From NCBI GenBank assembly GCA_017548125.1, contig JAFYNK010000033.1, positions 1-44,902 on the forward strand: 44,902 nt of DNA. The letters are read 5' to 3'. This DNA is from Bacteroidales bacterium. GTDB taxonomy: Bacteria > Bacteroidota > Bacteroidia > Bacteroidales > F082. A program made the position numbers and the translations under genes. Of this stretch, positions 4,437-29,777 are shown piece after piece. Position 1 is the first letter of the stretch. Each line of letters begins with the position of its first letter. The notes under the pieces are model-generated. The model saw only the letters and a program-made list of their open reading frames with translations. It did no database searches and was not told the origin of the DNA.

Positions 4437-6902
4437 TTAATCATCGGATGAACGAAATTCGTTAGCGATCAGTCGTAGTTCGAAATAAGTGAAATCATCG
4501 CCTAAGACCTCTCTTGCAGCTGACAATGAGAGGTCTTTTGTTTCTTCAAAGTACTCTCTTATTATCTCGATATGTTCTTTGCTTACAAAGTCATGCACTT
4601 CATAGATGCCGTTTTTTATTATTTCTGCGATGTGGCCTTCTATGGTGCTTCTCGATAAACCTCTCTCTTTCATGATGTCGTCGATGGTATAGTCTTCGTC
4701 GAGAAGTACTAAAGTCTTTGAAGCGCTGCTTGAAAGATTCATCTCTCTGTTCGATTCAGCGTCGTCGAAACTGCATTTTTTAAAACCCAATGATTCCAGC
4801 ACTATGTTGATGATGTCGGCGCCGAAACTCTTGATACGCGTGGTTCCAAGCTTAGAGATGCTTTTAAGTTCTTTGATGGACGTCGGCTTTTGCTCGGCGA
4901 TTTTGTTGATGACAGTCGTAGGTATAATATGAGACGCCTCTTTGTTCAATTCATCGGCTTTGTTCTTGCGCCATTTCAACAAATCTTTTAATAAAGGCTT
5001 GTCTTTGTCATCTACGCTTTTTGACTTCAGTTTCACCGATTTAAGATTCTCCGATTCGACGGTTTTCTTGTTTTTCATCTCCAGATATTTGTCTAAGATG
5101 AAACCGTCTTTTGCTAAATGGAGACACGCTGTCTTCACATAAAGAATCTCTCTTATCGTATCAAGTACAGCCTTTATGGCGGTGTTGACGGCCTTGTTGT
5201 CGGTCTCGGCTATTAAGTCACCGATGCTTTCTAAGTCGTTGAGTTTGTTGAAGAAATAAACGGAGGCTTTTCTTATTCTCTCGTCTAAAAAAGAACTTGT
5301 TGTCTTGTTGTCTTGTTGTCTTGTTGTCTTTATTATCGACTCTACCTGTCTCGCGAATCTCATAGCTACGTCTATTACCTCTTCTCTGAAGAGATTGCGT
5401 TTTTCTGTTATTTTATCGGCTGTTTCTTTTCCTAAGATGTTGTCGTTTTCTCTTACTATCTTAGCAAGTTTGTTGATATGTATTTCTAATTCGTCGAAGG
5501 TAAAAAGTTCGAGTATTGTCTGATGATGGTATTTTGTTTCTTCGAAATGAAGCTTGTCTTTGTCTGGTTCTAGTGATGGTATTTTATCGACGAAAGAATT
5601 GATGGTTCTGTCGTTGTATAATACGTTGTTAGATATTTTTGCGTTGAGGACGAGGCCGTTAAGAGACGTGCATCGGCTCAGCGCCACATAGACCTGTCCG
5701 TGGGCGAAAGCCATCTCAGCGTTGAGCACCACCTTGTCGAAAGTGAGGCCTTGGCTTTTGTGAATCGTGATGGCCCAAGCTGTCTTGAGTGGTATCTGAG
5801 TGAAGCTGCCTATCTCTTTTTCTTCAATCTCGTTAGTCTTTTCGTTGAGGTTATATTCGAAGTTCTGCCATGTCACAGGCGTCACGTTGATGATTTCGTC
5901 GCTGCATTTGACTTTAACGCCTTCGTCTTTGTCGTAGTCTATTATCTTTCCTATTTTGCCGTTGTAGTAAAGCTTTTCAGGCGACGGGTCATTTTTCACG
6001 AACATGACCTGCGCCCCGACTTTAAGCTCGAGAATTTCTTTGGTAGGGTAAGCGTTCTCTGGAAATATTCCTTTTATCTCAGCGTTGAATGTCAGCGTTT
6101 TTGATTTGATTGCGTCAAGTTTCTCATCATTTATCTCATCAGCCTGATGGTTGTGAGTGGTCAGTGTGATATATCCGTCGTTGTCGTCAGCCTTGAAGTC
6201 GGGTATATGCCGTGAGTTGAGTATTTGCAGATTCTTGTTGTCTAACCTATTGTTTCTCACCTGATTGAGGATGTCGATGAAGTCGGTGTCGTTTTGTCTG
6301 TAAATATGATCCAGCTCGATGCATATATAATGTGTTTTCTGTAGTACGAGGCTGTCGAAGAAATATACGGATTTATAATAGTCCTGAAGCAGTTCCCATT
6401 CGTTTTGACGAGCTACTGGCGCCAGCTGTTGTATGTCGCCTATCATGAGCAGCTGCACTCCGCCGAAAGCCTTGTCGCTGCGTCGCACCTTTCTCAGGAC
6501 GGCGTCGATGGCGTCGAGGAGGTCGGCGCGCACCATGCTGATCTCATCGATGACGAGCAGGTCGAGGCTGCGCATGATTTTAAGTTTTGTCTTGCTTAGT
6601 TTGATGCTCGCCAGAGGCGATAGCATCTGTTGCTCGTTGTCTTTATGTCTTTGTCCTTCAGGGATGATAGGTCCGAAAGGAAGCTGGAAAAACGAATGTA
6701 TTGTCACTCCGCCAGCATTGATGGCAGCCACGCCGGTAGGAGCGACGATGACCATTCTCTTATAGCTGTTGGCGGCCAGGTTTCTGAGGAAGGTGGTCTT
6801 GCCAGTGCCAGCCTTTCCTGTGAGAAAGATATGAACATCAGTGTTTTGCACAAACCTATTCAACATATCAATCTTATCATTCTTAAACACCTCTGCTTTC
6901 AT
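4437..6902 (-). CDS. PIF1-like superfamily 1 helicase with HRDC-like and helix-turn-helix C-terminal domains
   Basis: An 821-residue ATPase/helicase. Walker A is GKAGTGKTT (residues 29-37, K35); Walker B is LLVIDEIS (D119, E120). VAPTGVAAINAGGVTIHSFF follows motif I and is typical of PIF1/RRM3. The helicase ends with TAWAITIHKSQGLTFDKVVL and VYVALSRC, the UvrD/Pif1 C-terminal motifs. Residues about 645-710 resemble an HRDC domain (WRKNKADELNKEASHIIP, then ELKSISKLGTTRIKSFG). The last about 90 residues look like a DNA-binding HTH module (YTIDDIMKERGLSRSTIEGHI). PIF1 enzymes unwind 5'-3' and clear G-quadruplexes and R-loops. Residues near 525-536 are encoded by an in-frame CAAGACAA octamer array, a likely disordered insertion. 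Confidence 0.9.
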   Translation of the reverse strand: MKAEVFKNDKIDMLNRFVQNTDVHIFLTGKAGTGKTTFLRNLAANSYKRMVIVAPTGVAAINAGGVTIHSFFQLPFGPIIPEGQRHKDNEQQMLSPLASIKLSKTKLKIMRSLDLLVIDEISMVRADLLDAIDAVLRKVRRSDKAFGGVQLLMIGDIQQLAPVARQNEWELLQDYYKSVYFFDSLVLQKTHYICIELDHIYRQNDTDFIDILNQVRNNRLDNKNLQILNSRHIPDFKADDNDGYITLTTHNHQADEINDEKLDAIKSKTLTFNAEIKGIFPENAYPTKEILELKVGAQVMFVKNDPSPEKLYYNGKIGKIIDYDKDEGVKVKCSDEIINVTPVTWQNFEYNLNEKTNEIEEKEIGSFTQIPLKTAWAITIHKSQGLTFDKVVLNAEMAFAHGQVYVALSRCTSLNGLVLNAKISNNVLYNDRTINSFVDKIPSLEPDKDKLHFEETKYHHQTILELFTFDELEIHINKLAKIVRENDNILGKETADKITEKRNLFREEVIDVAMRFARQVESIIKTTRQQDNKTTSSFLDERIRKASVYFFNKLNDLESIGDLIAETDNKAVNTAIKAVLDTIREILYVKTACLHLAKDGFILDKYLEMKNKKTVESENLKSVKLKSKSVDDKDKPLLKDLLKWRKNKADELNKEASHIIPTTVINKIAEQKPTSIKELKSISKLGTTRIKSFGADIINIVLESLGFKKCSFDDAESNREMNLSSSASKTLVLLDEDYTIDDIMKERGLSRSTIEGHIAEIIKNGIYEVHDFVSKEHIEIIREYFEETKDLSLSAAREVLGDDFTYFELRLIANEFRSSDD
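5296..5330. repeat. In-frame octamer array inside the helicase gene
   Basis: Four tandem CTTGTTGT units (coding strand ACAACAAG) plus a partial unit. On the minus strand it is translated as TTRQQDNKTTS. The same peptide, with small changes, occurs in the acyltransferase (twice) and the alpha-2-macroglobulin-like protein. Confidence 0.85.
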
Positions 6903-6904
6903 AA

Positions 6905-7040
6905 TTTTGGAGTGATTTAGTGATGAAGTAATGGAGTTTTGAGTAATGTAGTTTATTTGTTATTACTTGTAGTCTTGTAGTCTTATTGACTTGTAGTCTT
7001 GTAGTCTTGTAGTCTTGTTGACTTGTAGTCTTGTAGTCTT
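6905..7040. repeat. Intergenic octamer array between helicase and histidine kinase
   Basis: The gap is filled by two period-8 sub-arrays. Near the helicase start the units are degenerate TNGAGTNA-like words. From about 6964 they are CTTGTAGT words with CTTGTTGA and CTTATTGA variants. The TAA stop of the histidine kinase lies inside the last degenerate octamer. No -7 box for the helicase could be made out inside the array. Confidence 0.75.
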
Positions 7041-8574
7041 ATATACTGTCAGACTTTCTCAGCGCTATTCTGAAGGTTGTTCCTTGTCCTACGACGGAGT
7101 TTTTGACAAAGATTTTGCCTTTATGATAATCTTCTATTATTCGTCGTGCGAGTGAGAGTCCGAGGCCCCAGCCTCTTTTCTTGCTGGTGTATCCTGGCTG
7201 GAAGATTTGTTTGTACGCTGAGCGTTGCATGCCTTTGCCTGTATCGCTGATGTCGATGTAGATGTTTTCAGCGTCTTCGGTCATCTCTACGGTCAGTTTG
7301 CCGTGGTCTTCCATGGCGTCGAGGGCGTTTTTGGTGAGGTTTTCGAGCACCCAGCTGAAAAGCGCCGCGTCGAGAGGAACGCTAATCTCTCTATCTGGGA
7401 CTTTGATGTCAAACTCGAATTTGTTGTTTGAGAATCTGCGTTTTAGATAACTCATCGTGTCGTTGACGGCAACCGTCACGTCATGGGCTTCCAGCGTAGG
7501 GATGGAGCCTATCTTAGAGAAACGCTCGGTTATCGTCTTCATCCTCTCGATGTCCTTCTCCATTTCAGTCGTGCCGATGAAAGGCGTGTCTTGCATCTTC
7601 AGCAGCTCTATCCATCCCATGAGCGATGTGAGTGGAGTGCCAATCTGATGGGCTGTCTCTTTGGCCATGCCAGCCCAGACCTGGTTCTGCTCTGAACGAC
7701 GTGCATAACTGAATAACAAATATGCAACTATGATGAAGAAAATGAAAACTAGAATCTGAATGATTGGAAAGTAGCGGACTATACGAAGCAAGTCGGAACT
7801 GCGATAATAAATGTAAGCCTTCTCGCCGTCTAAGTAATTCACCTCTATCGGCATGTTTTCCGACTTCATGATGTCAATCTGCTCTTGTACATAATCGCTG
7901 TTGTTCATGTTGTCTTTGTTGAGATTGCCGTAGCTAAGTATGTGATTGCCTGCCTGGTTTAGAATTATGACAGGAACGCCGGCAGCATTGTCAGCCACAT
8001 CGTTGATGAAGAAAGTGAACATGTCGTCAAGAACGTTGCGAAGCTCGGTGTAGATGAGCGACTCGTTGTAGTATAACGACGACTCTTTCCCGTAAATGTC
8101 AATTTTTATCGGAGGATAAATGCTGAAGTCGTTTTGCATTTCTATGTCGAAAATCTCCTTGTCTTGATGTTTCTTCGGAAGATTTATCGAAAGAGTGATG
8201 TTGTTGTCAGAATCGGTGATGACGACAGGAATGCTGATGTTGCTTTGGATGATGTCGAGATAAACGCCGATGTTTTCGTTCGACGTGGCAGCAAGAAAAC
8301 GCCGGTATGCCATCGCAAGAAGCTCTACGCGCTTGCTTTCCTGCATACTTACTTCATTGAAAAACACTTCGGTATAATTCATCAGCTCGGCGTGAGTCTG
8401 AACGGCTTCAGCCCACATCGCCATCTGTCTTTGCTCTTGTGAGGCAAATCTTTTGACAAGATTATTAGTGTAATACATGGAAAGAGTAACTATCACAACG
8501 GCAATGATAGATAACGCAACTTTCCATCTTTTTTTCTTCGCATATAGGTCCGCACTAAGCTTGTTATTCAACAT
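7039..8574 (-). CDS. Membrane sensor histidine kinase (orphan)
   Basis: A 511-residue two-component sensor kinase. TM1 is at about residues 19-38 and TM2 at about 270-290, framing a roughly 230-residue periplasmic sensor region. No HAMP domain is obvious. The phosphoacceptor H-box KETAHQIGTPLTSLMG carries H309. The HATPase domain shows an N-box (ENLTKNALDAM), a G1 box (DISDTGKGM) and a GWGLGLSLARRI G2 segment. No response regulator gene is next to it, so the partner must lie elsewhere; the signal cannot be read from the sequence. It is transcribed in the same direction as the helicase downstream but separated from it by the octamer array. A TACTTTTG -7 box on the minus strand lies upstream. 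Confidence 0.93.
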   Translation of the reverse strand: MLNNKLSADLYAKKKRWKVALSIIAVVIVTLSMYYTNNLVKRFASQEQRQMAMWAEAVQTHAELMNYTEVFFNEVSMQESKRVELLAMAYRRFLAATSNENIGVYLDIIQSNISIPVVITDSDNNITLSINLPKKHQDKEIFDIEMQNDFSIYPPIKIDIYGKESSLYYNESLIYTELRNVLDDMFTFFINDVADNAAGVPVIILNQAGNHILSYGNLNKDNMNNSDYVQEQIDIMKSENMPIEVNYLDGEKAYIYYRSSDLLRIVRYFPIIQILVFIFFIIVAYLLFSYARRSEQNQVWAGMAKETAHQIGTPLTSLMGWIELLKMQDTPFIGTTEMEKDIERMKTITERFSKIGSIPTLEAHDVTVAVNDTMSYLKRRFSNNKFEFDIKVPDREISVPLDAALFSWVLENLTKNALDAMEDHGKLTVEMTEDAENIYIDISDTGKGMQRSAYKQIFQPGYTSKKRGWGLGLSLARRIIEDYHKGKIFVKNSVVGQGTTFRIALRKSDSI

Positions 8575-8620
8575 AATTTTTATGATTTATGTTTTAAACA
8601 ATAAAAAAATCGATTTAGTA

Positions 8621-8628
8621 CAAAAGTA
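8621..8628 (-). promoter_or_regulatory. Candidate -7 box for the histidine kinase gene
   Basis: On the minus strand this reads TACTTTTG, matching the Bacteroidetes TAnnTTTG box, 47 bp before the ATG. No good -33 TTTG is seen at the usual spacing. Confidence 0.5.
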
Positions 8629-8752
8629 TAAATTATTTCCTGATTTTCATTAAGAAATATTGATTTTTATATAAAGAAAAATGAGTTTTTTCTATGTCAA
8701 AGCATTACATAATTTTTAAAAAATAATATATAAAATATATATAAAAAATATA

Positions 8753-8760
8753 TAACTTTG
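8753..8760 (+). promoter_or_regulatory. Candidate -7 box for the giant subtilisin-like gene
   Basis: TAACTTTG matches TAnnTTTG, 47 bp before the ATG at 8807. The region just upstream (about 8710-8752) is an almost pure A/T tract that may act as an UP-like or bent element. The -33 element is not clear. Confidence 0.55.
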
Positions 8761-8806
8761 CAGATTATTTTTTTGAGCTCAAATTTTTAAATTTAAAGTT
8801 TTATTT

Positions 8807-11800
8807 ATGAAAAAAATCCTATGGTGTTTATTAACCCTGGTGTTGTTCTGTAATAACGGATTTTCCCAGAATCTTAATGTTATAGAAAAAGAATTACAAG
8901 AGGTTTTAAACCAGAAAAACGATGAATTAGTAAGTGTTAGCATCGTTTTCAAATCACAGATTAATTCTGCTAAATTGAAAGCTAAAGCAGAAAAGAAACT
9001 CGACAAATCAACAAGAAAAGAATTTGTTATCGACGAACTTAAAGAATTTTCGTCAAAAAGCCAGGCTGATGTCTTGTCTTTCCTTAAAGCAGAAGAGAAA
9101 GGCGGCAAAGTAAGCGACATTAACAGTTTATGGATTGTTAACATGATATCATGTGATGCATCTAGAGATGTTATCTATAAACTTTCGTCACATCCTGACA
9201 TTAAAATGCTTAGCTATAATAAAGAAGTTCAACTTCTTGAAAGAGAAGCTGAAATGGCTGAAGTTGACGACGTGCAGGAAACGAGAGGTGGAATGGCTGC
9301 TCCACATGTGCTGCAAGTCAATGCCGATGACGTATGGAACCAAGGCTACACTGGAAGAAATGTGGTAGTTGCTGTTTTAGACTCAGGAAGTAATATAAAT
9401 CACTATGACCTTAAAGACCATCTTTGGATTGGCTATGCCGATACTGATGACGATGGCGTGGATGATGTTATAAACGGTTGGAACTTCGTTGATAAAAGCT
9501 CTGATGTTAGAGATAACTATGCTGGTGTAGGTCATGGTACGCATTGTGCTGGTATTGTCTGTGGTGACGGAACGGTGGGAAATACTGTTGGTATTGCACC
9601 AGACGCACTTCTCATGACTGTCAAAATTGTTAACAGAGCTGGCGGTGGTACTGTTGACCAGATGCTCAGCGGCGTTCAGTTTGCAGTTAAAAACGGAGCT
9701 GATGTCTTAAGCATGTCACTTGGCTTTAAAGGCAAAGATCTTTCATCAACACAGAAGGAAACAATACGTACGACTTTCGAACAGGTGTTGAATGCAGGTG
9801 TTGTCGTCTGTGCAGCGGCAGGTAACGATGGAACAACTATAGGCGTGCCATACAATGTTGACTATCCTGCAGCATGTCCTGCTCCTTGGCTTCATCCAGA
9901 TCAAAAGAAAATTAACGAAGGCGGCTTGTCAAGCGTTATCTGTGTTGGCTCTGTAAATAGTAACAATAATCATGTGAGTTCATCGTCAGAAGGACCATCA
10001 ACATGGGAGGATTATCCATACGATGGTACATCTAAATTCGGTCTTATCCGACCTGACATTAGCGCTCCAGGCGATTTGGTCTATTCCCTTAAATATAATG
10101 AAAATGACAAGTATAAATATTTGTCAGGAACGTCACAAGCTACTCCTTGTGTGGCTGGCGTGATAGCTCTTATGTTGGAAAAAAATCCAAACTTGACTCC
10201 TGCCGAAATATGTGAGATTATAGAGACAACAGCGTCTAACAAGCCTGTAGAAAAAAACAATCAGATTGGTTCTGGCGTTGTTGACGCCTTGAATGCAGTT
10301 AACGCTGTTAATGCATCATCAGGCAGCCCATTCGTTAAACTTACACATTTCTCTCCTAAGTCAATAGTAAGTGGTAATAACACTTTGAATGTTACCATCA
10401 CCAATGAAGGTAACGGCGTCAGTGAAAATACTAATGCTACTTTAACTACAAGTGATGAATATGTTACTATAACAAACGCTAATGTGTCGTTGGGAAATAT
10501 TGGTGCAAAGTCTTCTGTTAATGCAGAATTTACTATCAACGTATCTTCAAATGTTCCTAATGGACATACGGCAAGTTTGTTGTTGACAACAACAGATGGT
10601 TCGTTCACATGGAGAGATGCATTCTCAATAAAGATTAACTCAAGCCCTATTATTGTATATCAGTCTAGTTCAACAGGTGTGATTAATGCTGGAGAAGAAA
10701 CACAGATTAATGTCGTTATGAAGAATAAAGGTACTGCTGCCACTGTTCAAAATACTGATGTTAGCTTGTCTTCAAATTCTCAGTATGTAGATGTCAGAAG
10801 TGGTAATGTTACATTGGGACCAATGAATATAAATGAAGAAAAGAACGCCTTTTTCAGTGTTTATGTTAATCCGGATATACTTGATAAAGAATCTATTATG
10901 TTTACTTTGCAGGCTAATCCAGATAATAATCTTGTAGCAAGAAACATCACATACGAGTTTGAGCAAGAAATTGATGAATATGGATTCCCTACTGACGGTT
11001 TCAATGGCTGGACAACATTTGATAATTCCCCTGATGGTAGAAATCATCCTTGGCTGCATACTTCAGAATATGCCACACATAACATTGAGTTTGTAGGTGG
11101 TTCTCAGTCTGGTATGGGACACATGGCTAGTGAAACTTATTGTAATGGCTCGATGTCGGCTTATACCATGCCGATAGACAACTTCTTGGTTTCTCCAAAA
11201 ATAAAAGCTACTGCAAACAGTAAAATAACTTTCTTTGCTCGTGCTCATGATGGTTTCGTAGGCGAACGTTTTTATGTGTCTATATCAGAAGCAAGCAATA
11301 ATGTGGCAGAAGATTTTAAAGACATTGAAAGATATCAACTCACTAATATCATAATTTCTTCTGTATGGAAGGAATATACATTGGATTTGAAAGATTATGC
11401 AGGTAAAGAAATATATGTAGCTTTTAGACATCATTTCACAGAACAAGAATGGGCTAATTGCAGCAATGGTATGGATACATATATGTTGCATATTGATGAT
11501 GTTACATTCTATGATGTTATAGATCTTTCAGAAGAATGCAAAAACAATAACAAAAGTTATTTTAATGTATTGGTAAATTCAAATCCATTGTCAGCTCCTG
11601 GAAATCTGAAAGCTGTAGCAAATGGAATATCGTCCATCACTCTATCGTGGGATGCTGTAGCCAAAGCTAAGAGCTACAATATTTATCGTGATGGCGTATA
11701 TATCAAAAACGTAGGTAAGGAAACAACATCATATACTGACGCTAATTTGGCTCATAATACAGAATATTGCTACGAAGTGGCAGCCGTTGGAAACATAGAA

Positions 11801-16824: not shown

Positions 16825-16862
16825 TAAGCTGAAATCTTTGAAAATAATTCAATCTATATAAA

Positions 16863-16929: not shown

Positions 16930-16950
16930 CTGACTAAATAAATTTAAACT

Positions 16951-19221
16951 ATGAAAAAAGGTATCTTATTTTTACTCGTATCATTATTCTCATTAAATCT
17001 CATTCATGCTCAAAATGTCAATGCCATTGAGCCTGAACTTCAAGAAGTCTTAAATCAAAAGAACGATGAAATGATAAGTATTAATATCATTTTAAAATCG
17101 CAGATCCAAGAACAAGAGTTGAAACAGTTAGCCTCAAAAGCTAACGATAGAAAAACCAAAAGAGAAATCGTTGTCGCAAGATTGAAATCTTTTTCTAAAA
17201 ATTCACAATCTGATATTATGTCAATACTTGGCGCTGAAGAGAAAAACGGAGGCGTCAGTGATATAAGATGTCATTGGTTGGTAAATGCCGTCAGCTGTAA
17301 TGCGAGCCGCGAAGTGATATATTATTTGTCAAATCATAACGATGTTGCTGTCATCGCATATAATAAGATGAGCTATTTGTTGTGGGACGAAGAAATGAGA
17401 CCTGTTGAGTCGCCAAGAGGAATGACGCAGAACATCACACATGTCAAGGCCAACCAGGTATGGAATATGGGCTATACAGGCAAGGGCGTTTTGGTGGCAG
17501 TCATAGACACAGGCGTCAATTTTAACCATATAGATTTAGCTGACCATTTGTGGGATGGTGGAGAAGAATATCCAAATCACGGATATAATACAATAGAAAA
17601 CAGCCATGATGTGTCGGACGGTTTTGGTCATGGCACACACTGCGCAGGTACGATCTGTGGCGATGGAACTTCAGGAACGCAGACTGGCATTGCGCCTGAT
17701 GCGACATTGATGTGCGTTAAGGTCATCGACAATACTGGTTATGGAAGTGCGACAAGTATCAGCGCAGGTATGGAGTTTGCCATAGAACATGGCGCTGATG
17801 TCTTGAATATGTCGTTGGGAATACCATTTGCTTCGGCGGCGGTGCGAGAGATGCTTCGCAGCGCTTGTGAGAATGCATTGCAATGTGGAATTGCAGCGCC
17901 TACCTCTGTCGGTAACGACGGACAGCTGCAGATTTCTTTCCCTGTTCCTAACAACGTGCGTGTTCCAGGAGGCTGCCCTCCACCATGGATACACCCTGAC
18001 CAGGAAAGCAATGCTGGCGGTCTCTCTTGCTGCATCGCTACAGGAGCTGTTGACTATAACAATGTGAGAGCGTCATTCTCTTCATACGGACCGTTCACAT
18101 GGCAGGAGACAGCTTACGCCGATTATCCTTATAACCCAGGCATGGGTCTTATTCGTCCTGATATTAGCGCTCCTGGCGTCGGTGTCATCTCCGCTGACCC
18201 TAATAACCCTAATGGCCATGTCAGCATGGACGGCACTTCACAGGCAGCGCCTTGCGTGACAGGCGTGATAGCGCTTATGCTGGAAAAGAATCCAGAACTT
18301 ACACCAGCAGAGATAAGTATGACATTAGAGACTACAGCCGTAAAACTTGCTGACAACAAAAACAACTACACAGGCTCTGGATGCGTTGACGCGTTGGCGG
18401 CAATACAAAGCATAGAAGGCGGCGAGGTGGTTGAGCCTTGCGACGCTCCGACAAACATCAACGCTGCTGTTGAACAAGACGCGGAAGGCTTCGGTTATAT
18501 CTTCAAGACAACAGTGACATGGGACGAAGTCGTTAATGCTGTTTCTTACAATGTATATATCAATGGTGATTTGTATGAGACAGTGGCCGCAACATCGTGC
18601 GTTTACGGAACAGACGAAGAAGGAACATTGAATATTGCTGTTTCTACTAAATGTCAAGATGGCGAATCAGAATTGTCAGAAAGCATAAGCGTAGTGCTTG
18701 AAGAAGAAATTTTACCTTGTAACCCTCCTACCAATCTCAACGCTGCAATAGAGCAAGACGCTGCCGGCTTCAGCTATAACTTCAAAGTGACAATGAGCTG
18801 GGATGCTGTCAACAATGCAAGTCAATATGTCGTTTATCTCGATGGAAATATTTTAGATGTTACACCGTCCACTTCATATATCAAAGGATTTGACGAAGAA
18901 GGCACACATTCATTTGCCGTCGTCTCCATCTGTGTTGAAGGAGAGTTTGAGATGTCTGAAGCATTTGAATTTGAACTCATCGGCGAATCGATAGGAGAAT
19001 ATGAAAACAACTTTGAAATATACCCTAATCCAGTCGATGATGTCTTGTACATAAAATCAAACAAGAACATCGAAGAGATTAACATTTATAATATTGTTGG
19101 AATTAAAATGTCAACAGTCAACGGACAACAGACAACAGTTAATATTGACATGAGCGGATTCAACTCAGGAGTTTACTTTGTTGAAGTCGATGGAAAAACT
19201 TATAGAATAGTTAGGAATTGA
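16951..19221 (+). CDS. Secreted subtilisin-like (S8) protease with two Fn3-like domains and T9SS sorting domain
   Basis: A 756-residue paralogue of the upstream giant protease; the two share the same propeptide opening (residues about 21-150 here, VNAIEPELQEVLNQKNDE). Signal peptide ends near IHAQ (residue 21). The catalytic triad is D186 (VAVIDTG), H227 (GHGTHCAG) and S430 (DGTSQAAP); the oxyanion Asn is in SVGNDG. Both paralogues carry a CPxPWxHPDQ insertion in the S8 domain. Two tandem Fn3-like domains follow (about 490-585 and 590-685). The last about 75 residues are a T9SS type A-like domain (EIYPNPVDDVLYIKS, ending YRIVRN). The sorting domain contains a heptamer array encoding TVNGQQTTVN. 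Likely role: extracellular protein digestion, after autoprocessing of the propeptide. Confidence 0.94.
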   Translation: MKKGILFLLVSLFSLNLIHAQNVNAIEPELQEVLNQKNDEMISINIILKSQIQEQELKQLASKANDRKTKREIVVARLKSFSKNSQSDIMSILGAEEKNGGVSDIRCHWLVNAVSCNASREVIYYLSNHNDVAVIAYNKMSYLLWDEEMRPVESPRGMTQNITHVKANQVWNMGYTGKGVLVAVIDTGVNFNHIDLADHLWDGGEEYPNHGYNTIENSHDVSDGFGHGTHCAGTICGDGTSGTQTGIAPDATLMCVKVIDNTGYGSATSISAGMEFAIEHGADVLNMSLGIPFASAAVREMLRSACENALQCGIAAPTSVGNDGQLQISFPVPNNVRVPGGCPPPWIHPDQESNAGGLSCCIATGAVDYNNVRASFSSYGPFTWQETAYADYPYNPGMGLIRPDISAPGVGVISADPNNPNGHVSMDGTSQAAPCVTGVIALMLEKNPELTPAEISMTLETTAVKLADNKNNYTGSGCVDALAAIQSIEGGEVVEPCDAPTNINAAVEQDAEGFGYIFKTTVTWDEVVNAVSYNVYINGDLYETVAATSCVYGTDEEGTLNIAVSTKCQDGESELSESISVVLEEEILPCNPPTNLNAAIEQDAAGFSYNFKVTMSWDAVNNASQYVVYLDGNILDVTPSTSYIKGFDEEGTHSFAVVSICVEGEFEMSEAFEFELIGESIGEYENNFEIYPNPVDDVLYIKSNKNIEEINIYNIVGIKMSTVNGQQTTVNIDMSGFNSGVYFVEVDGKTYRIVRN
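19111..19140. repeat. In-frame heptamer array inside the T9SS sorting domain
   Basis: Four TCAACAG/ACAACAG-type heptamers, stop-free on the coding strand, encode STVNGQQTTV in the sorting domain of the subtilisin-like protease. Confidence 0.65.
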
Positions 19222-19225
19222 CTAA

Positions 19226-19330
19226 AGTCAACAAGTCAACAAGACTACAAGACTACAAGGCAAATGACTAATGGCTAATGACTAAAGTTTAAAGTTTAAG
19301 GTTCAGAGTTCAAAAGTTCAAAGCTCAATG
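19226..19330. repeat. Intergenic compound array that changes from period 8 to period 7
   Basis: It begins as octamers (AGTCAACA, AGACTACA, AGGCAAAT) and continues as heptamers (GACTAAT, GGCTAAT, GTTTAAA, GTTCAAA, GCTCAAT). The heptamers GACTAAT and GGCTAAT are reverse complements of the ATTAGTC/ATTAGCC word type used at 28561 and 34902. It fills most of the gap before leuS. Confidence 0.75.
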
Positions 19331-19426
19331 GTTTTCCCTCTGTTCTCTCTAAATTTTTTAAAACTTTGGGTTTCCGAGTTTCAAAAAAAAATTTTATTTT
19401 TGTAACTTTATCTAAACAATGTAGTT

Positions 19427-22561: not shown

Positions 22562-22625
22562 CGCTCATAATAAATGAAAAATTGGTCTCATATTTGATAT
22601 TTTTTTTAAATAAAATTTATCAGAT

Positions 22626-25600
22626 ATGAAGGCCAATTTTTTATTGATATTATTGTCGTTGTCATTTTTCTTTAATCTTAACGCTCAATCTTATAACGAC
22701 TTATGGAATGATGTTAATGAAAATTTAGAAAACCGACTTCCTGAATCAGCGGAAACATTTCTTAATAAAATTGAACAAAAAGCCATAAGCGAGAACAACC
22801 AAAAAGAACTTCTGAAATCATATCTATATCGTTTTAAGATTTTTAATCAAAAAGACGAAAATCCGATAAAGACCTCAATACAATTCGCAGAGAAAAATAT
22901 CGACAGACTCCAAGAACCAGAAAAATCGATTTTTAACCTTGCAATAGCTTCTCTTTATGAGAATTACCTTAACGATAATTTCTTTAGAATAGACAGAATA
23001 CAGACAACTGACAACAGCAATGAGTTGGACATTGAATTCTGGGATAAAGCGACTTTTGAAAATGTCATCGAATCTTATCTTAATAAATCTTTAGAAAATG
23101 CAGAGTCATTGAAGAAAACTTCTGCGGAATCGTGTCAGGAAATACTTTCCATCAATGATTATAATGATGAAAAAATAGATTATATATACGAGCCAACTCT
23201 TTATGACTACGTCTCGCATTTTGTTATAAATTATTACAAATCATACGACAACATAAAAGAAAAAGCATTAAATATTTATCAGGAACTTATCAATTTCGAC
23301 AAGGAGAATAATTATACTGACGCTGCCTTATATAATAAGATTAATAAAATTGAATTGGAATATAATATTTCTGAAAATCTTAATGAATATTTAGAAAGTT
23401 TAGAAAATCTTAAAAACAATAACATCAATAATCCTTTGACCGCATTGGTGATGGCATTACAAGCAGAAGCAATGTATAATCGTCAAAAGTCAACGGACAA
23501 CGGACAACAGACGTTGGATGATGTGCTTGATATTTGCGATGAAGCAATGAGATTATTCCCAAACAGCATCGGCGCGAAACAATGTAATTCAATACGTTCT
23601 GAGATTTTAGAGAAAGAATTGTCCATCTCGATGCAGAATGTTAATGTGCCAAACAAAGCGATTCCATTAGCTCTTACATATAGAAATATCACAAATCCTC
23701 ATTATCGTATTTACAAAGTATATCAAAAAGAGTTGGAAGAACTTAAAGGCGATAGCGATGTGGAAATTGTCATGAGTCTGCTCGAAAAAAATTATATAAT
23801 TGAAAATCATATCGATATTCCTGAAGAGAAAGATTATAAAGAACATTCGTCACTCATCGCTTTGCCCGAATTGGAATCTGGATATTATTTCATATTATTT
23901 TCAAAAGATGATGTTTTCAACGCTAAAAAATATCCTGCGGTACATGCTTTTCAAGTCAGCGATTTAAGTTATGTAGTGACAAACCACAACGGCAATTCTG
24001 TTATACAAGTCCTTGATAGAGAAAACGGCAACCCGATTAAAGATGTTATGGTTGAAGCCTATGATAGTAAATATGATTATAAAGAAATGACATATATTAA
24101 CAATCATGTTTTCAGCAAGATAACTGATAAAAACGGTAGAATATCTATTCCTAACGACATCAATAAATCTATAAATATTAATCTGTATTACAAAAACGAC
24201 ACCTTGCTTTCTGAATCATATTCGATATTCCATTTTCCTCAAAAAAATGAAGACGAAAAAATGATAGAAAAGACATCCTTCTTTACCGACAGATTGATTT
24301 ATCGTCCAAGGCAAACTGTTTTCTTTAAAGGCATTATGACAAATGAAAATTCAAAAAAGAAAGAACTGCTCTTAGGTAAGGAGACGGAAGTCAGTTTTAT
24401 AGACAGCAATAGGGAAGTGATTGAAACAAAGACTTTTGTAACCAATGAATTTGGCTCTTTCGATGGAAGTTTTGTAATTCCTGATAATTTGTCTAACGGA
24501 AGTTTTATTATCAAGAACGAAAGTGGTTGCATATATATTAAAATTGAAGAATACAAACGTCCTACTTTTGAAATAACGTTTAATTCACCAGATAAGTTAT
24601 TCAAACTCAACGATAAAATAAATCTTACCGGTTCAGTAAAAGCATACGCAGGTTTCGGTCTCGATAACATCAATTATGATTATACTGTCGTAAGACGCGC
24701 TTCTTTCCCTTATCGTTTTTTGTGGTTCGACAACCAAAAACAGATTGCTTTCGGAGAAGGAACAACCGACGCAAATGGCAACTTCAATATCGAGTTCGAA
24801 TTGATTCCTGATAAAAAATTAAAAGACAGACTTCCTGTTTATGAATATCTTATAACAGTAAACGCCACCAACGCACAAGGCGAAACCCAGACCAAGACTT
24901 ACACCATAAACGCATCAGAAAATGATTTGATTCTCGATTTCGACAACGAATCCTCAAATATTGCTTATGATAATTTAGAATCAATAACGTTTTCCGTTAA
25001 AAATATTGAGAACATTCCAGTAAAGGCTAAAGTCATAAGAAAGATTTATCAGCTGAACAACAACAATCGTTTTATTGATAATGAATACAACTTCGACCGT
25101 AAGCTTTTATCCGATAATGAGTTAAAAGAATTATTCCCACATTTCGACTATTATTCATCCAACAGTCAACAGTCAAATATAAATGGCAATTTGATATATG
25201 AAGATGAGATTTTAGTCGATGGCAAGGCGAAGGTTTTTCCTGATGTTAAAAAACTTATAAAAGAAGGCAGATTTTATGTTGAGATAATTTCATTTGAAAA
25301 CGAGAATGAGAAAATCACAAAAGAAATTAACATAATAGATTTTAATAGCAAAAAGATACCATATAAAGAAATGTGTTTGTCATATACTGACAAGAATACG
25401 GCAAAAATAGGTGACAATGTTAATTTTTATTTAGGAAGTTCTGCCAATGATGTCAGTGTTTATGTCAATGTTTTGCATAATGATAAAGTTCGCTATTCTA
25501 AATGTGTAAAATTAAATGACGAGATTTTGAAGTTCCCTTATAAAATTAAAAAGGAAGACAGAGGCAGAATCACATTTGAAGCGTATTTTGTTAAATATAA

Positions 25601-28448
25601 CACTATCAATGTTGTAAGGCAAAATGTTTCTGTTCCTTACGACAATCTTGATTTGGATATAAAATTAGATGTGGAAAGAGACGAATTACAGCCAGGAGCC
25701 AATGAGAAATGGAGTCTTACCATAAAGGATTATAAAGACAAAGGCGTTTTAGCCAATCTGATGGTTGGTATGTATGATGCCTCATTAGACGTTTTCGCCA
25801 AAAACAAATGGAGTTTAAACAACAAGCCTTATATTAGATATTTGCCAAACAATCCTTTGTTTGATTATGGTTTCTCACACTTTTACACTTACGCCAGAAA
25901 AGAAAGTTTCCCGCAATATAATTCATTAGATTTCAATATTTTGTCTAATTATACCTTGGTGGGAAACAATTATGACGGCAGAATGTATTCGTTTAGAAAT
26001 ATGAGTTTTTCCAATGATAATGTCAGGGCTGGAGGCTCGTTGACAAAAAGTTCTAATGTTACATTTGTCGGTGAGATAGATATAGTTGAAGAGGATACAG
26101 ACTTAGTAGAACACGAGGATCAAGATGTTACATCTTCATTAAGAGAAAACTTCAACGAGACGGCGTTCTTCTATCCTAATTTAATTACTAACGAAGATGG
26201 AAGTCTGACCTTCTCTTTCACCATGCCCGACGCCTTGACTCGCTGGAACCTGATGATGCTCGCTTATACCAAAGACTTGAAAGTCGGCACTTTGAACAAG
26301 ACTTTCACCACATCGAAGCCTCTTATGATTATGAGCGATATGCCTCGTTTCGTTTATGAAAACGACACTCTCTGGGTGGTGGCGAATGTTATCAAGACAA
26401 CGAATGAAAGGCAAAAGGCAAAAGACAAAAGGCAAAAAGCAACTGCGAAATTAGAGATTTTCGATGCTTTGACGATGGAACCTTTGGATTTGATTCTCTC
26501 TGAACAGGAGATTGCAATGAACGAAATATCTGTAGGAAACAGTGAGTCAGTAAGATGGAAAGTGGCAATTAACAACAGTACAAATTTATTGGCGATGCGT
26601 TTCAGCGTTTCGTCGGAGGGTTTCTCTGATGCAGAGCAGCGTCTTCTTCCTGTCTTAAGCGATGAAGTCTTTATGGCAGAGACATATCCTTTGTTAGTGA
26701 GAGAATATTCCGAAAAGACTTTAGACTTCGATTTCCAAAACGAGAATGAAAGAAATTACGGATTGACATTGAACATCTGCGCAAATCCAGTCTGGTATGC
26801 GATACAGTCGCTGCCTTATCTCTCTCAAGAGACAGGACAATATGCCGACGCAGCATTTAACATTTTCTATGCTAACAGTCTTGCCTCATATATCGCGAAT
26901 AACATTCCTAACTTATTGGATTATATCAAGAAATGGGAATTAGAAACGCCTAACGCCTTGATGTCGGCGCTTCAGAGAGACGAGAATCTTAAAGCAATCA
27001 TGTTGCAAGAAACGCCATGGGTGATGGAAGCGAAATCGGAGGCAGAACAAAAAGCGATGCTCGCCAACTTGTTCGACGTTAATGTATTACGTGATAAGAC
27101 TGACGAGACATTAAACCTCATTAAAGAGAAACAAAGCGTCAACGGTGGATGGTCATGGTTTCCTAATATGCCGGAAAGTCCGTTCATCACTCAATATATA
27201 TTAGGTGGCTTCGGTCGTCTTTATAAAATGGACGTCATAAAATCATTGACAGCAAGTCAGCAGGAATATTCCGACATCATAACTCAAAAGGCAATCAAAT
27301 ATTTATGCAACGACATAATAAAAGATTATGACTTGTATAAGGATTATAAAAATATCTCAAGTTATTTAAATATCAACGAATTATATGTATTGAGTTTCTT
27401 CGACTTCAATGAAGACTATAAATACAAAAACGCCAAAGACTTCTTTATCAAACATTTGAAAGAAGACTGGCAAAATTTCAACTTCGGCACGCAAGCAAAA
27501 ATCGCCTTGATATTATATCGCAATGGCGACAAAGACATCGCTCAGCTGATAATAAAATCGCTAAAAGAAAGAGCCAAGAAGAACGAAAATCTTGGCATGT
27601 ATTGGACTTCTAACGTCAGCGAACATGTCGTTATCATGGAAGCGTTCAAGGAAATAAGTCCCGATGAGAAGTATCTTAATGAAATGAAAATGTGGTTGTT
27701 GAATAACAAACGTACCAATATGTGGGAGAATGCACAGATGACCGTCGATGCAGTTTATGCTTTGGTTTTTGATGAGACAACAAGACTACAGGACAACAAG
27801 ACAACAAGTATTGAAGATAATACAGGATTGCTTGTTGTGATTAAGAACGACAATGATTCTTCTGATTTTATGAACCAATATTTTTGGAATTCAGAAGAGA
27901 TGAAGGATTTTAAAGATATTAAAATCAATAACGAGACTGATAATCTTATATGGGGCGGTTTGTTCCGTCAGTATTTCGTCTCTCTCGATGAAGTGAGAAA
28001 ACACGAGACGCCATTGAAAGTGGAGAGAAATATTTATATTGAGAGAGTCAACGAAGAAGGAACATATCTCGTTCCTATTGAGAATGATGATATTAAAGTT
28101 GGAGACAAGATTGTCGTAAATCTTAATATCGAAAGTTCTCAAGACATGGAGTTTGTCTTTTTGAAAGATATGAGAGCCGCTTGTCTCGAACCAGTCGAGC
28201 AGATGTCGAGATATAGATACCAAGACGGAATGCTATATTATCAAAGTAACAGCGATACTTTCATGGGATTTTATTTTGATAAAATGCCGAAGGGAAAACA
28301 TCAGGTCAGTTATTCGATGTTTGTGACAAAGGCTGGCGATTTCAGCAATGGCTACGCCTTGATACAATGCATGTACGCACCAGAGTTTTCAGGATATTCA
28401 GAAGGAAATAGAATTAAAGTAATAAGACTTGAGGAACTGAGGAACTGA
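22626..28448 (+). CDS. Alpha-2-macroglobulin-like protein without a thioester
   Basis: A 1940-residue secreted protein of the bacterial alpha-2-macroglobulin/MG2 family, which trap or blunt proteases in the periplasm or at the surface. Signal peptide at residues 1-21 (FFFNLNAQ), without a lipobox. An MG2 domain starts near 556 (TDRLIYRPRQTVFFKGIM). The A2M domain is near 1180-1210 (FFYPNLITNEDGSLTFSF and MPDALTRWNLMMLAY). The thioester-containing alpha-helical domain spans about 1390-1680 with GGWSWFPNMPESPF. At the place of the CxEQ thioester, the sequence reads YADA (1406-1409) inside ETGQYADAAFNIFYANSLA, so Cys and Gln are both missing. Five heptamer/octamer arrays lie in frame within it, and its stop codon lies in a sixth. 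It starts 64 bp after leuS. Confidence 0.9.
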   Translation: MKANFLLILLSLSFFFNLNAQSYNDLWNDVNENLENRLPESAETFLNKIEQKAISENNQKELLKSYLYRFKIFNQKDENPIKTSIQFAEKNIDRLQEPEKSIFNLAIASLYENYLNDNFFRIDRIQTTDNSNELDIEFWDKATFENVIESYLNKSLENAESLKKTSAESCQEILSINDYNDEKIDYIYEPTLYDYVSHFVINYYKSYDNIKEKALNIYQELINFDKENNYTDAALYNKINKIELEYNISENLNEYLESLENLKNNNINNPLTALVMALQAEAMYNRQKSTDNGQQTLDDVLDICDEAMRLFPNSIGAKQCNSIRSEILEKELSISMQNVNVPNKAIPLALTYRNITNPHYRIYKVYQKELEELKGDSDVEIVMSLLEKNYIIENHIDIPEEKDYKEHSSLIALPELESGYYFILFSKDDVFNAKKYPAVHAFQVSDLSYVVTNHNGNSVIQVLDRENGNPIKDVMVEAYDSKYDYKEMTYINNHVFSKITDKNGRISIPNDINKSININLYYKNDTLLSESYSIFHFPQKNEDEKMIEKTSFFTDRLIYRPRQTVFFKGIMTNENSKKKELLLGKETEVSFIDSNREVIETKTFVTNEFGSFDGSFVIPDNLSNGSFIIKNESGCIYIKIEEYKRPTFEITFNSPDKLFKLNDKINLTGSVKAYAGFGLDNINYDYTVVRRASFPYRFLWFDNQKQIAFGEGTTDANGNFNIEFELIPDKKLKDRLPVYEYLITVNATNAQGETQTKTYTINASENDLILDFDNESSNIAYDNLESITFSVKNIENIPVKAKVIRKIYQLNNNNRFIDNEYNFDRKLLSDNELKELFPHFDYYSSNSQQSNINGNLIYEDEILVDGKAKVFPDVKKLIKEGRFYVEIISFENENEKITKEINIIDFNSKKIPYKEMCLSYTDKNTAKIGDNVNFYLGSSANDVSVYVNVLHNDKVRYSKCVKLNDEILKFPYKIKKEDRGRITFEAYFVKYNTINVVRQNVSVPYDNLDLDIKLDVERDELQPGANEKWSLTIKDYKDKGVLANLMVGMYDASLDVFAKNKWSLNNKPYIRYLPNNPLFDYGFSHFYTYARKESFPQYNSLDFNILSNYTLVGNNYDGRMYSFRNMSFSNDNVRAGGSLTKSSNVTFVGEIDIVEEDTDLVEHEDQDVTSSLRENFNETAFFYPNLITNEDGSLTFSFTMPDALTRWNLMMLAYTKDLKVGTLNKTFTTSKPLMIMSDMPRFVYENDTLWVVANVIKTTNERQKAKDKRQKATAKLEIFDALTMEPLDLILSEQEIAMNEISVGNSESVRWKVAINNSTNLLAMRFSVSSEGFSDAEQRLLPVLSDEVFMAETYPLLVREYSEKTLDFDFQNENERNYGLTLNICANPVWYAIQSLPYLSQETGQYADAAFNIFYANSLASYIANNIPNLLDYIKKWELETPNALMSALQRDENLKAIMLQETPWVMEAKSEAEQKAMLANLFDVNVLRDKTDETLNLIKEKQSVNGGWSWFPNMPESPFITQYILGGFGRLYKMDVIKSLTASQQEYSDIITQKAIKYLCNDIIKDYDLYKDYKNISSYLNINELYVLSFFDFNEDYKYKNAKDFFIKHLKEDWQNFNFGTQAKIALILYRNGDKDIAQLIIKSLKERAKKNENLGMYWTSNVSEHVVIMEAFKEISPDEKYLNEMKMWLLNNKRTNMWENAQMTVDAVYALVFDETTRLQDNKTTSIEDNTGLLVVIKNDNDSSDFMNQYFWNSEEMKDFKDIKINNETDNLIWGGLFRQYFVSLDEVRKHETPLKVERNIYIERVNEEGTYLVPIENDDIKVGDKIVVNLNIESSQDMEFVFLKDMRAACLEPVEQMSRYRYQDGMLYYQSNSDTFMGFYFDKMPKGKHQVSYSMFVTKAGDFSNGYALIQCMYAPEFSGYSEGNRIKVIRLEELRN
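23001..23020. repeat. Short in-frame heptamer tract in the alpha-2-macroglobulin-like gene
   Basis: About two and a half units (AGACAAC, TGACAAC) encode QTTDNSN. It is too short to be certain on its own, but uses the same words as the longer arrays. Confidence 0.35.
23482..23516. repeat. In-frame heptamer array (GTCAACG/GACAACG words)
   Basis: Five period-7 units encode RQKSTDNGQQT between two helical segments of the alpha-2-macroglobulin-like protein. Stop-free on the coding strand. Confidence 0.65.
25160..25176. repeat. Short in-frame heptamer tract (CAGTCAA words)
   Basis: Two CAGTCAA units encode NSQQSN in the alpha-2-macroglobulin-like protein. Same word family as the intergenic AGTCAACA arrays. 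Confidence 0.4.
26402..26442. repeat. In-frame heptamer array (AAAAGGC words)
   Basis: About five period-7 units (GGCAAAA, GACAAAA) encode ERQKAKDKRQKATA, a highly charged stretch just after the A2M domain strand LWVVANVIKTT. The words are the reverse complement of TTTTGCC/TTTTGTC types, close to the ATTTGCC and TTTAGCC words found between genes. Confidence 0.7.
27777..27808. repeat. In-frame octamer array (ACAACAAG words)
   Basis: Four period-8 units (ACAACAAG, ACTACAGG) encode TTRLQDNKTTS near residue 1720 of the alpha-2-macroglobulin-like protein, nearly identical to the peptide inserted in the helicase and the acyltransferase. Confidence 0.8.
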
Positions 28449-28526
28449 GGATTTGAGGAACTGAGGAACTGAGGAACTGAGGATTTGAGGATCTGAGGAT
28501 CTGAGGAACTGAGGATTTGAGGATTA
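28431..28526. repeat. Array of 12 GAGGAACT/GAGGATTT octamers at the 3' end of the alpha-2-macroglobulin-like gene
   Basis: Twelve uninterrupted period-8 units were counted. The last residues of the upstream protein (EELRN) and its TGA stop lie in the first two units. The octamer contains TGA, and because 8 is not a multiple of 3 every plus-strand frame meets a stop within 24 bases. Confidence 0.9.
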
Positions 28527-28560
28527 CAAGTCAACGAGTATTAAACTAGTGGCAAATAAC

Positions 28561-28588
28561 TTTAGTCTTTAGTCATTTGCCTTTAGCC
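28561..28588. repeat. Heptamer array overlapping the acyltransferase stop codon
   Basis: Four heptamers TTTAGTC, TTTAGTC, ATTTGCC, TTTAGCC. On the minus strand they encode the last residues (LKAND) and the TAA stop of the acyltransferase. The words are the same as at 34902-34950. Confidence 0.75.
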
Positions 28589-29777
28589 ATCTTCTAACCG
28601 GTTCATCATAAAGCTTAAGACAGGCGTATGCTAAAGCGACGTTAGTTATAATTACGAGAGTCACGATTTGCCAAGTCTCGCCGAGAGTGTATAACTTATT
28701 GTCGATGAGCCATGAGTAGAAGAGATACATCACTGGATAGTGGACCATATATAATGGATAAGAGATGTCGCCTAGGAACTTGCATATTTTAGTTGAAAAA
28801 CTGTTAGTTATGTTTCCTGAAGCGCCGAACCATACTATCAAAGGAAAGACTAAAATGATGCACGCCAACTCATAAACACCATTGACGCTGATGTCGCCAG
28901 ATTTTGAAATATAAGGCATAGAGAAAAGAACAAACATCACGACAATAGAAATCCAGAAAACATTCTTTCCAACGAAAGATTTAAAACATGGACAAACACT
29001 TGTTGTCTTGTCGTCTTGTTGTCTTGTTGACTTCATGAAATTACGTGAAAGAAGCATTCCTAAAGAGAAAGGAAACATCATTCTGAGCAGACCGCCGAAG
29101 AAGTTGACGGCGTCTAAAGTCCATCCGATGCCTATCATATCGTAACCAGAGACATCGAAGACGACGAAACCGATCCACAGAAGACCTGTTGACGCGACCA
29201 AGACGGCGAGTTTCTTATTAGATAATTTTCTGATGAAGAGAGCGTATAAGATGTTGCCGATATATTCGAAGAAGAGCGACCAGCTAGGTCCGTTGAGAGG
29301 ATACATCTCACCATTGCCGCGCACGTCGTAAGCGGCGCCAGGATAAGCAGGTATGAGAAACATAGCAAGTAAAAACGCTAACATAGTCCAATGGAGCGGC
29401 ATGTGAGTTCCGTCCCATCTCACGCCGCCTTGGATGAGGTAAGTTATCAGTCCGATGAGAGCGCCCATCATCACCATAGGCTGCAATCTTATGAGACGCC
29501 GCTTGAAGAAAGCGCCGACTGTAAGACCATTACTTGTTGTCTTGTTGTCTTGTTGTCTTGTAGTCTTCCATCTGTCATCATAAGCGTAACTTATCACAAA
29601 ACCCGACAGCATGAAGAAGAAATCGACGCCGAGATGACCGTGGTTAAAGGTATCTATAGCTGTTCCGCCAGCGAAAGCGAAGCCCTCAAAGACATGATAC
29701 CACAGCACCATAAGAGCTGCAGCGCCACGAAGACCATCGAGAAGGAGATAGTGAGGTTTGGTGGTGATGTTGTTCAT
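28569..29777 (-). CDS. Acyltransferase family 3 membrane protein (OafA/YrhL type)
   Basis: A 402-residue integral membrane O-acyltransferase, a family that acetylates or otherwise acylates cell-surface glycans. The N-terminus YLLLDGLRGAAALMVLWYHV carries the conserved R and H of the family; GHLGVDFFFMLSGFVISYAY follows. About ten hydrophobic segments can be traced, including the final TLVIITNVALAYACLKLYDEPVRRW. Two octamer arrays are inserted in frame: one in the first cytoplasmic/periplasmic loop after YDDRWK (TTRQQDNKTTS), one in a later loop after SRNFMK (STRQQDDKTTS). The acceptor sugar is not predictable, and no surface-polysaccharide genes are nearby. A TACATTTG -7 box on the minus strand is 28 bp before the ATG. 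Confidence 0.93.
   Translation of the reverse strand: MNNITTKPHYLLLDGLRGAAALMVLWYHVFEGFAFAGGTAIDTFNHGHLGVDFFFMLSGFVISYAYDDRWKTTRQQDNKTTSNGLTVGAFFKRRLIRLQPMVMMGALIGLITYLIQGGVRWDGTHMPLHWTMLAFLLAMFLIPAYPGAAYDVRGNGEMYPLNGPSWSLFFEYIGNILYALFIRKLSNKKLAVLVASTGLLWIGFVVFDVSGYDMIGIGWTLDAVNFFGGLLRMMFPFSLGMLLSRNFMKSTRQQDDKTTSVCPCFKSFVGKNVFWISIVVMFVLFSMPYISKSGDISVNGVYELACIILVFPLIVWFGASGNITNSFSTKICKFLGDISYPLYMVHYPVMYLFYSWLIDNKLYTLGETWQIVTLVIITNVALAYACLKLYDEPVRRWLKAND
28999..29033. repeat. In-frame octamer array (second loop) in the acyltransferase gene
   Basis: Four CTTGTTGT-type units, two with one changed base (CTTGTCGT, CTTGTTGA). Translated on the minus strand as STRQQDDKTTS. Confidence 0.8.
29533..29568. 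repeat. In-frame octamer array (first loop) in the acyltransferase gene
   Basis: Three CTTGTTGT units and one CTTGTAGT unit. Translated on the minus strand as TTRQQDNKTTS, identical to the peptide in the helicase. Confidence 0.85.

Follow-up and report, generated by a model that had tools for sequence, protein, structure and literature searches.

Short tandem heptamers lying between genes, the STRR heptamers, are a feature of heterocystous cyanobacteria. In the part of their paper drawn on here, Rehm et al. (2015; PMC4692102) describe GGGAATC and GGGGA(C/T)T heptamer repeats of Xanthomonas and Nostoc that prefer four units, occur in facing pairs and vary in length; in xanthomonads they lie on average 28 nt from the open reading frame (ORF) on their 5' side and 160 nt from the one downstream, and the four units were tied to G-quadruplexes. 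Calothrix heptanucleotides are mentioned in the same part. The excerpted text of MacGregor (2015; PMC4679880) reports TAACTGA heptamers in Beggiatoaceae, Cyanobacteria, and five Bacteroidetes, with no mechanism evident in that text. We analyzed tandem arrays of the octamer ACAACAAG and of other short words in a contig of 44,902 nucleotides from a Bacteroidales bacterium (JAFYNK010000033.1, assembly GCA_017548125.1; hereafter the window) and in the genome to which it belongs (G000; 2.73 Mb, 97 contigs). The arrays are a further variety of the already known dispersed short-word (6–9 bp) arrays of the Rehm and MacGregor type; they are members of a dispersed family that typically consists of AAG and then a run of octamers, often four of them, with a total length of about 35 bp. 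The polarity of the intergenic octamer arrays is the strongest new result and was absent from a first-pass annotation of the window, made by a model from the sequence alone.

As far as the excerpts of Rehm et al. (PMC4692102) go, the octamer arrays share with those heptamers a dispersed and mostly intergenic distribution, a preference for four units, polarity with respect to the ORF on the 5' side, facing pairs, and lengths varying between relatives. They differ in that the octamer lacks G-tracts and cannot form the proposed G-quadruplex, that anchoring at stop codons and -7 boxes was here resolved to a few nucleotides, that many words occur per genome, that in-frame copies were found in core genes and in a signal peptide, and that words were exchanged at the same loop in relatives. 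Because ACAACAAG has no G-tract, the G-quadruplex link cannot be general; as the cause of four units it was ruled out for this octamer, whose unit is without GG, only rare variants giving GG. We thus deal with a second, chemically different case of gene-end-polar four-unit arrays, which separates the architecture from the G-quadruplex explanation. The TAACTGA repeats, in the excerpted text (PMC4679880), are likewise dispersed arrays, mostly intergenic, some of them in ORFs and some overlapping stop codons; unlike the arrays described here, they consist of one 7-bp word, most lie just upstream of start codons in that genome, and the forward repeats have stops in all frames. Neither octamer arrays in this clade nor array-encoded signal peptides were reported by the open-licence papers listed, as judged by titles and abstract openings.

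The G000 sequence set consisted of the window, 30 loci chosen for exact word matches, and ten further stretches taken at fixed places on match-holding contigs, away from the listed matches; it is an array-enriched sample, since loci were selected for exact matches. Gene calls were ORFs of at least 100 codons and not curated genes. The named relatives are metagenome-assembled genomes (MAGs), as other genomes may be too, and some arrays lie close to contig ends. The two-octamer word (16-mer) had 70 exact overlapping matches in the G000 genome, and the reversed control word had none. A search of the relatives, the check proposed in the first-pass annotation, found the word in 8 of the 99 genomes of the genus; three of these held little of it, with one match in G042, two in G048, and five in G058 that form a single site. 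It was found in none of 394 other Bacteroidota genomes, which included no other member of the genus, and the reversed control occurred once in 5 of them. In the window itself, 21 places differed from two octamers by at most 2 mismatches; dinucleotide shuffles (n=100) averaged 0.03 such places.

Many 7- and 8-bp words coexist in one genome. Tandem Repeats Finder detected 28 period-7 and 34 period-8 arrays in the window and the ten further stretches (243 kb); ten shuffles of the same 243 kb gave on average 0.0 arrays of either period. Per 100 kb, 13.6 period-7 and 7.8 period-8 arrays were found in 20 stretches of the genus versus 1.1 and 0.7 in 19 stretches from outside it (one stretch per set was masked, five other genus stretches had no such arrays, and eight period-8 rows of the genus stem from one repeated element in the G050 stretch). 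Arrays of period 10–13 were alike in density, 5.1 in the genus and 6.0 outside. Array length was peaked: the 34–35 bp bin held 46 of 97 rows of the main octamer, and the 32–33 bp bin held 32 of 107 heptamer rows, both pooled over G000, G068, and G070. In the ten further G000 stretches, strict runs of the octamer had two units in 3 cases, three in 2, four in 9, and five in 1.

The intergenic arrays are placed in a polar manner. AAG precedes strict arrays of at least three units in 11/12 cases in the ten further stretches, 5/5 in the window, 9/12 in G068, and 19/21 in G070. Among 35 intergenic arrays of the G000 set that were flanked by called genes on either side, 30 had the 5' end nearer an ORF, with median gaps of 6 nt on the 5' side and 119 nt on the other; the same was found for 9/14 arrays in G070 and 3/4 in G068. 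Of the 22 G000 cases in which the 5' neighbour ended on the same strand, the array began no more than 10 nt past the stop codon in 19; if positions in the gap were uniform, 1.8 would be expected, with at most 7 in 5000 draws. The mirror of this test gave 0/19. Where the 5' neighbour started on the other strand, CAAAnnTA, which we take to be the complement of the Bacteroidetes -7 box TAnnTTTG, lay at most 28 nt away in 10 of 13 G000 cases, at a spacing of 7–12 nt, with 0/16 for the mirror. The stop-codon test gave 6/8 (mirror 0/6) in G070 and 0/1 (mirror 0/2) in G068; the -7 box test gave 4/6 (mirror 0/8) and 3/3 (mirror 0/2), respectively. The purine-richer strand ran outward in all 48 gene-abutting arrays of the main octamer group pooled from the three species; for gene-abutting arrays of other words, the outward strand was the purine-richer one in 38 cases, even in 14, and the pyrimidine-richer one in 8. 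Some orthologous arrays enter this pool repeatedly. For octamers not belonging to the main group, a coarser test of the distance to the nearest ORF gave 45 to 21. Such sharp one-way anchoring at stops and -7 boxes makes the origin of the arrays testable.

Facing octamer arrays were also noted within one gap (L030 2985-3058, L040 18778-18851, L047 6883-6946). By pairing they could form hairpins, possibly with a terminator function.

Within genes, arrays were encountered less often. Of the merged period-7/8/14/16 arrays of the ten stretches, 8/60 lay wholly within ORFs, the ORF share of the sequence being 90%. A Pfam family was matched by all ten array-bearing ORFs checked. The octamer hosts in G000 were a tricorn-like protease, a glycosyltransferase, a U32 peptidase (two arrays), DUF819, LptE, and a CN hydrolase; DNA polymerase III alpha (G068) and a DUF5074 protein (G070) were hosts elsewhere, and heptamers were carried by a BatA-like and a PrmC-like protein of G000. 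In the G000 set, 13 of 61 octamer arrays were in ORFs, 12 of them reading the ACAACAAG strand and one, the LptE signal peptide, the other strand; the figures were 8/21 for G068 (6 and 2) and 6/26 for G070 (5 and 1). The four other-strand arrays all fell in the first fifth of the ORF, and two of them were LptE. The signal-peptide core of LptE in G000, CLVVLLSCC, is an octamer array read from the other strand. Among the LptE orthologues examined (24 of 30 fetched, with 96 matched genomes), a clear CTTGTTGT array was present in six (G000, G068, G070, G054, G048, and G049), a degenerate array in four, and an ordinary signal peptide in the remaining fourteen, the classes being judged by eye. In G048, one of the only two exact matches of the genome is LptE. 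The presence of a clear LptE array in six species means that some arrays are older.

The DUF5074 protein of G070 (L178 4137-4225) was seen to begin with two consecutive arrays, a heptamer array encoding a basic stretch and then an octamer array that reads as a hydrophobic, lipoprotein-like signal core.

Pfam assigned the three host proteins in the window, which the first-pass annotation had considered to be of no common ancestry, to unrelated families (PIF1 helicase, Acyl_transf_3 acyltransferase, and bacterial alpha-2-macroglobulin, A2M). The arrays themselves were recovered within a few bases of the places it had given for PIF1, acyltransferase sites 1 and 2, A2M site 1717, and the gap next to the histidine kinase gene (Table 1). 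Its claim that one peptide stands in all three proteins held in part: the four in-gene octamer arrays are in frame and encode KTTRQQDNKTTS, KTTRQQDNKTTS, KSTRQQDDKTTS, and ETTRLQDNKTTS, which are near-identical and not identical, so that TTRQQDNKTTS occurs in PIF1 and at acyltransferase site 1, STRQQDDKTTS at acyltransferase site 2, and TTRLQDNKTTS in A2M. Likewise, the intergenic array said to consist of the same words was present, mostly as the variant ACTACAAG. A unit of 8 is not divisible by 3, and all frames of one strand therefore yield the same cyclic octapeptide; the sameness of the peptides is thus partly automatic once the DNA word is shared. The leading AAG was in one frame in all four of these arrays; a cassette with a locked reading frame was nevertheless ruled out, because the forward in-ORF arrays of G000 (n=12) had frames 0/2/1 in 6/5/1 cases.

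As judged from the alignments, the in-gene arrays are lineage-specific: close relatives have another unit mix or copy number, and more distant ones have another word or none. The arrays appear to sit in loops, a placement taken from alignment gaps only. Relatives of the PIF1 gene were found at 13 named loci, on MAG contigs of Bacteroidales or Bacteroidia mostly from ruminant or horse gut, with identities of 57% for Candidatus Limimorpha caballi and 74% for Lentimicrobiaceae bacterium SIG107. At the PIF1 site, a yak relative (L120) had four units in a different mix, a buffalo relative (L121) had a decayed array, and L132 had no array. The loop was shorter than in G000 by 5 residues in SIG107 and by 4 in G042, and the 35-bp array is thus a net gain of only 4–5 codons over these two. 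None of the 24 aligned PIF1 orthologues of the genus, G042 among them, had the octamer peptide. The 6966..7040 array had no counterpart in the orthologous gap of L120, L121, or L132, and other octamer words were found there in L132.

At acyltransferase site 1, the four units of G000 corresponded to a single unit in G068 (24 bp less) and to none in G070 or G042; other words were present in G054, G058, G049, and G048 (array words at the orthologous acyltransferase and A2M sites were read by eye). At site 2, G000, G068, and G070 had octamers of differing units, and G054 combined one octamer, heptamers, and an in-frame 27-bp repeat (GACGTCACCCCTGTGGCGTCTCAAAAT; L149/L150). G048 and G049 had heptamers at this site, G058 had no clear array, and G042 had none. 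At A2M site 1260, AAAGGCA in G000 was matched by a version 21 bp (three units) shorter in G068 and by none in G070; G042 and G050 had ACAACAG heptamers here, the octamer of G058 was of a different word, and the word in G049 differed as well. One AAGACAAC was also found at this site in G042, where the other word is carried. A2M site 1717 had octamers in G068 and G070 as well and other words in G042, G050, and G049. Differing words at the same loop were thus found at acyltransferase sites 1 and 2 and at A2M sites 288, 1260, and 1717; since the same loops carry other words in relatives, the loops stay and the words change.

Two further features of the A2M genes were noted: an internal TAG stop codon in that of the closest relative, G068 (L133), and a short palindrome-like stretch around GTAGAGACGTACG at two loops in that of G058 (L136).

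Among the repeat-like gaps in the alignments of G000, G068, and G070, three intergenic ones measured 8 bp and two inside genes 24 bp. Lengths were divisible by three for 22 of the 24 gaps flagged as coding versus 6 of the 17 other gaps (gaps of at least 6 bp with at least 22/30 matches on each side, from three genome pairs that are not independent). The stretch holding the AGTCTATG array at 31666..31705 was 74 nt long in G000 and 2 nt in G068, and G070 had a variant array; because of the latter, the absence in G068 may be a loss. Comparison of G000 with its close relatives yielded no clean, high-identity site lacking the octamers, the search for insertions having returned unit-step changes, other indels, and whole-region replacement. 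The first-pass annotation had argued that the peptide arrived as DNA; this is supported, and so are the lineage specificity of the arrays, the occurrence of the same words between genes, and differences between close relatives. Retention of the peptide in distant orthologues, the observation it had named as contrary, was not encountered: the more distant ones aligned lacked the peptide or carried other words. Its expectation of clean insertions against array-free orthologues found no support: no target duplication was seen, and the net gain in PIF1 was small. An active process seeding arrays was proposed as well; copy-number change, unit exchange, and word replacement were seen, and active seeding itself is inferred.

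One word at many sites, polar placement, a length peak, change in unit steps, and exchange of words at the same loop are all observed. Their best explanation, to which we assign a probability of about one half, is that arrays are copied to new sites by a repair-like event with a polar start, followed by slippage. The copying would resemble DNA repair, with microhomology-primed template switching on an array already present as its likeliest form. It would start mainly where transcription continues unaccompanied by a ribosome, just past stop codons and on the outward side of promoters; purine-rich RNA may remain paired with its template there in R-loops. Such untranslated outward transcription would explain the start past stops, the outward run, and the purine-rich RNA sense. 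Slippage would then tune the copy number. In-gene copies would persist only if free of stops, in frame, and in tolerated places, such as loops, termini, or a signal-peptide core (CLVVLLSCC, from the other strand), selection presumably removing those that break the frame.

Several results weigh against copying with a polar start. Octamers of other words were spread out in length with no sharp peak. Strict runs in G068 had two units in 15 cases, three in 5, and four in 7, and in G070 two in 11, three in 8, four in 11, and five in 2; four units were therefore not the commonest everywhere, two being as common or commoner in these species, and the four-unit preference, seen in G000, was mixed in relatives. 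The AATTATG heptamer family breaks the purine rule, with the other strand outward in 5 of 7 gene-abutting cases, and accounts for five of the eight pyrimidine-outward cases. Heptamers gave 34 to 34 in the coarser nearest-ORF test, showing no polarity as a group. Repeat-like gaps were not all whole units: intergenic ones also measured 7, 9, 15, and 46 bp, and a further 7-bp gap, just past an array (L166), is one of the two gaps flagged as coding that are not divisible by three. Comparison of close relatives revealed no clean gain, target duplication, or junction microhomology. Finally, an RNA-level function could yield the same polarity. That all period-7/8 words are polar by the purine rule was ruled out as a general statement by the heptamer ratio and the AATTATG exception.

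The main rival, which is possible and in our view rather unlikely, regards the arrays as functional signals and the in-gene copies as accidental. Gene-strand CTTGTTGT repeats upstream of the -7 box would supply the -33 part of the promoter, and ACAACAAG repeats past the stop would affect the mRNA end, for instance as the site of an RNA-binding protein. The tight one-way placement, 7–12 nt from the -7 box and mostly 1–10 nt past stops, and the peak of main-octamer length near four units agree with such signals. The variation of words between relatives and the many words per genome are unexpected for a binding site, 13/61 arrays of the array-enriched G000 sample are within ORFs, and Rehm et al., in the part of the paper drawn on here, could not assign a regulatory role to the similar GGGAATC repeats (PMC4692102).

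Growth of each array in place from a chance seed by local slippage, with no movement, is already disfavoured and appears improbable. Whole-unit changes of copy number do occur, and these and the lone AAGACAAC at A2M site 1260 of G042 count in its favour; against this stands the same octamer at dozens of unrelated places in one small clade, 8/99 genomes of the genus and 0/394 others. We consider as equally improbable a miniature element driven by a transposase or reverse transcriptase (RT), like Rickettsia palindromic elements (RPEs) or REP/RAYT. In-frame arrival in unrelated genes does recall the RPEs, which by the excerpted text (PMC10969869) place the same DNA in frame in many unrelated proteins and are the nearest such case; facing array pairs make inverted repeats in some gaps, and a Y1 transposase and an RT are each matched once in G000. 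Yet the RPEs are palindromes of about 150 bp (PMC10969869, as excerpted) and the octamer arrays direct repeats of about 35 bp; single arrays have no palindrome, and no target duplication was seen. Y1 was present in 7/9 array-rich versus 3/6 array-poor genomes and RT in 6/9 versus 3/6, no clear relation in either case, the array density of 12/15 genomes being taken from at most 20 kb. The octamer 24-mer matched 0 viral contigs. That the peptides are old parts of each protein is very improbable, since, although close species have some arrays in common (the LptE array, clear in six; those at A2M site 1717 and acyltransferase site 2, shared by G000, G068, and G070), the more distant orthologues aligned had no array or other words, which refutes it for PIF1, acyltransferase, and A2M.

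The in-gene cases show non-coding repeats turning into protein: words differ at loops, changes of three units occur, and the LptE core is kept across species. More speculatively, a general bacterial process might write arrays of about 35 bp that begin at the ends of translated or transcribed units and run outward, the purine strand being the untranslated outward sense and the word being set by lineage and not by function. It would underlie the arrays of Xanthomonas, Nostoc, and the Limimorpha clade and supply loop peptides and the LptE signal peptide; we regard this extension as doubtful.

The arrays of the window, with one heptamer-bearing protein family from other loci, are collected in Table 1.

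Table 1. Tandem arrays of the window and of one protein family; strands as read in the window.
Feature	Position	Strand	Context or product
AAG(ACAACAAG)4 octamer array in PIF1-like helicase gene (4437-6902, -)	5296..5330	-	Encodes KTTRQQDNKTTS
Nine-unit octamer array, mostly variant ACTACAAG	6966..7040	-	Leading AAG overlaps TAA stop of histidine kinase gene 7039-8574 (-)
Four-unit octamer array	19228..19259	+	6 nt past stop of S8 peptidase gene 16951-19221 (+)
Heptamer array AAAGGCA in A2M gene (site 1260)	26407..26442	+	
Four-unit octamer array in A2M gene (22626-28448, +), site 1717	about 27775..27808	+	Encodes TTRLQDNKTTS
TGAGGAAC octamer array, about 12 units	28430..28523	+	Overlaps A2M stop codon, codes for last residues of A2M
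Octamer array, acyltransferase gene (28569-29777, -), site 2	28999..29033	-	Encodes STRQQDDKTTS
Octamer array, acyltransferase site 1	29533..29567	-	Encodes TTRQQDNKTTS
AGTCTATG octamer array	31666..31705	+	Inverted partner about 7 nt further
Heptamer array, GGCTAAT on - strand	34901..34950	-	Begins directly past stop of gene 34951-37251 (-)
33-copy AATTGAGG octamer array	44433..44695	+	10 nt past stop of gene 42800-44422 (+)
Heptamer arrays of WQSGTYVWKL...GKWVK family	L048 7787-7819; L155 6764-6796; L162 345-382; L163 105-142, 1925-1962; L181 3899-3927		

Other short arrays follow the one at 19228..19259, up to about 19323. The place of the TGAGGAAC array was occupied by unrelated sequence in G068, and the GGCTAAT heptamer array was 46 bp shorter in G070. 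The AATTGAGG array is by far the longest of the window. A dispersed repeat, AAAGATATAGCGGAAAGCCCGACGGCG..CCGTAACGCCCA, adjoins several octamer arrays (L030 about 4450-4510, L040 15400-15700 (-), L017 about 1380-1420, and L033). In the protein family ending WQSGTYVWKL...GKWVK, heptamer arrays were located in the last stretch ahead of the C-terminus, with another word in G070.

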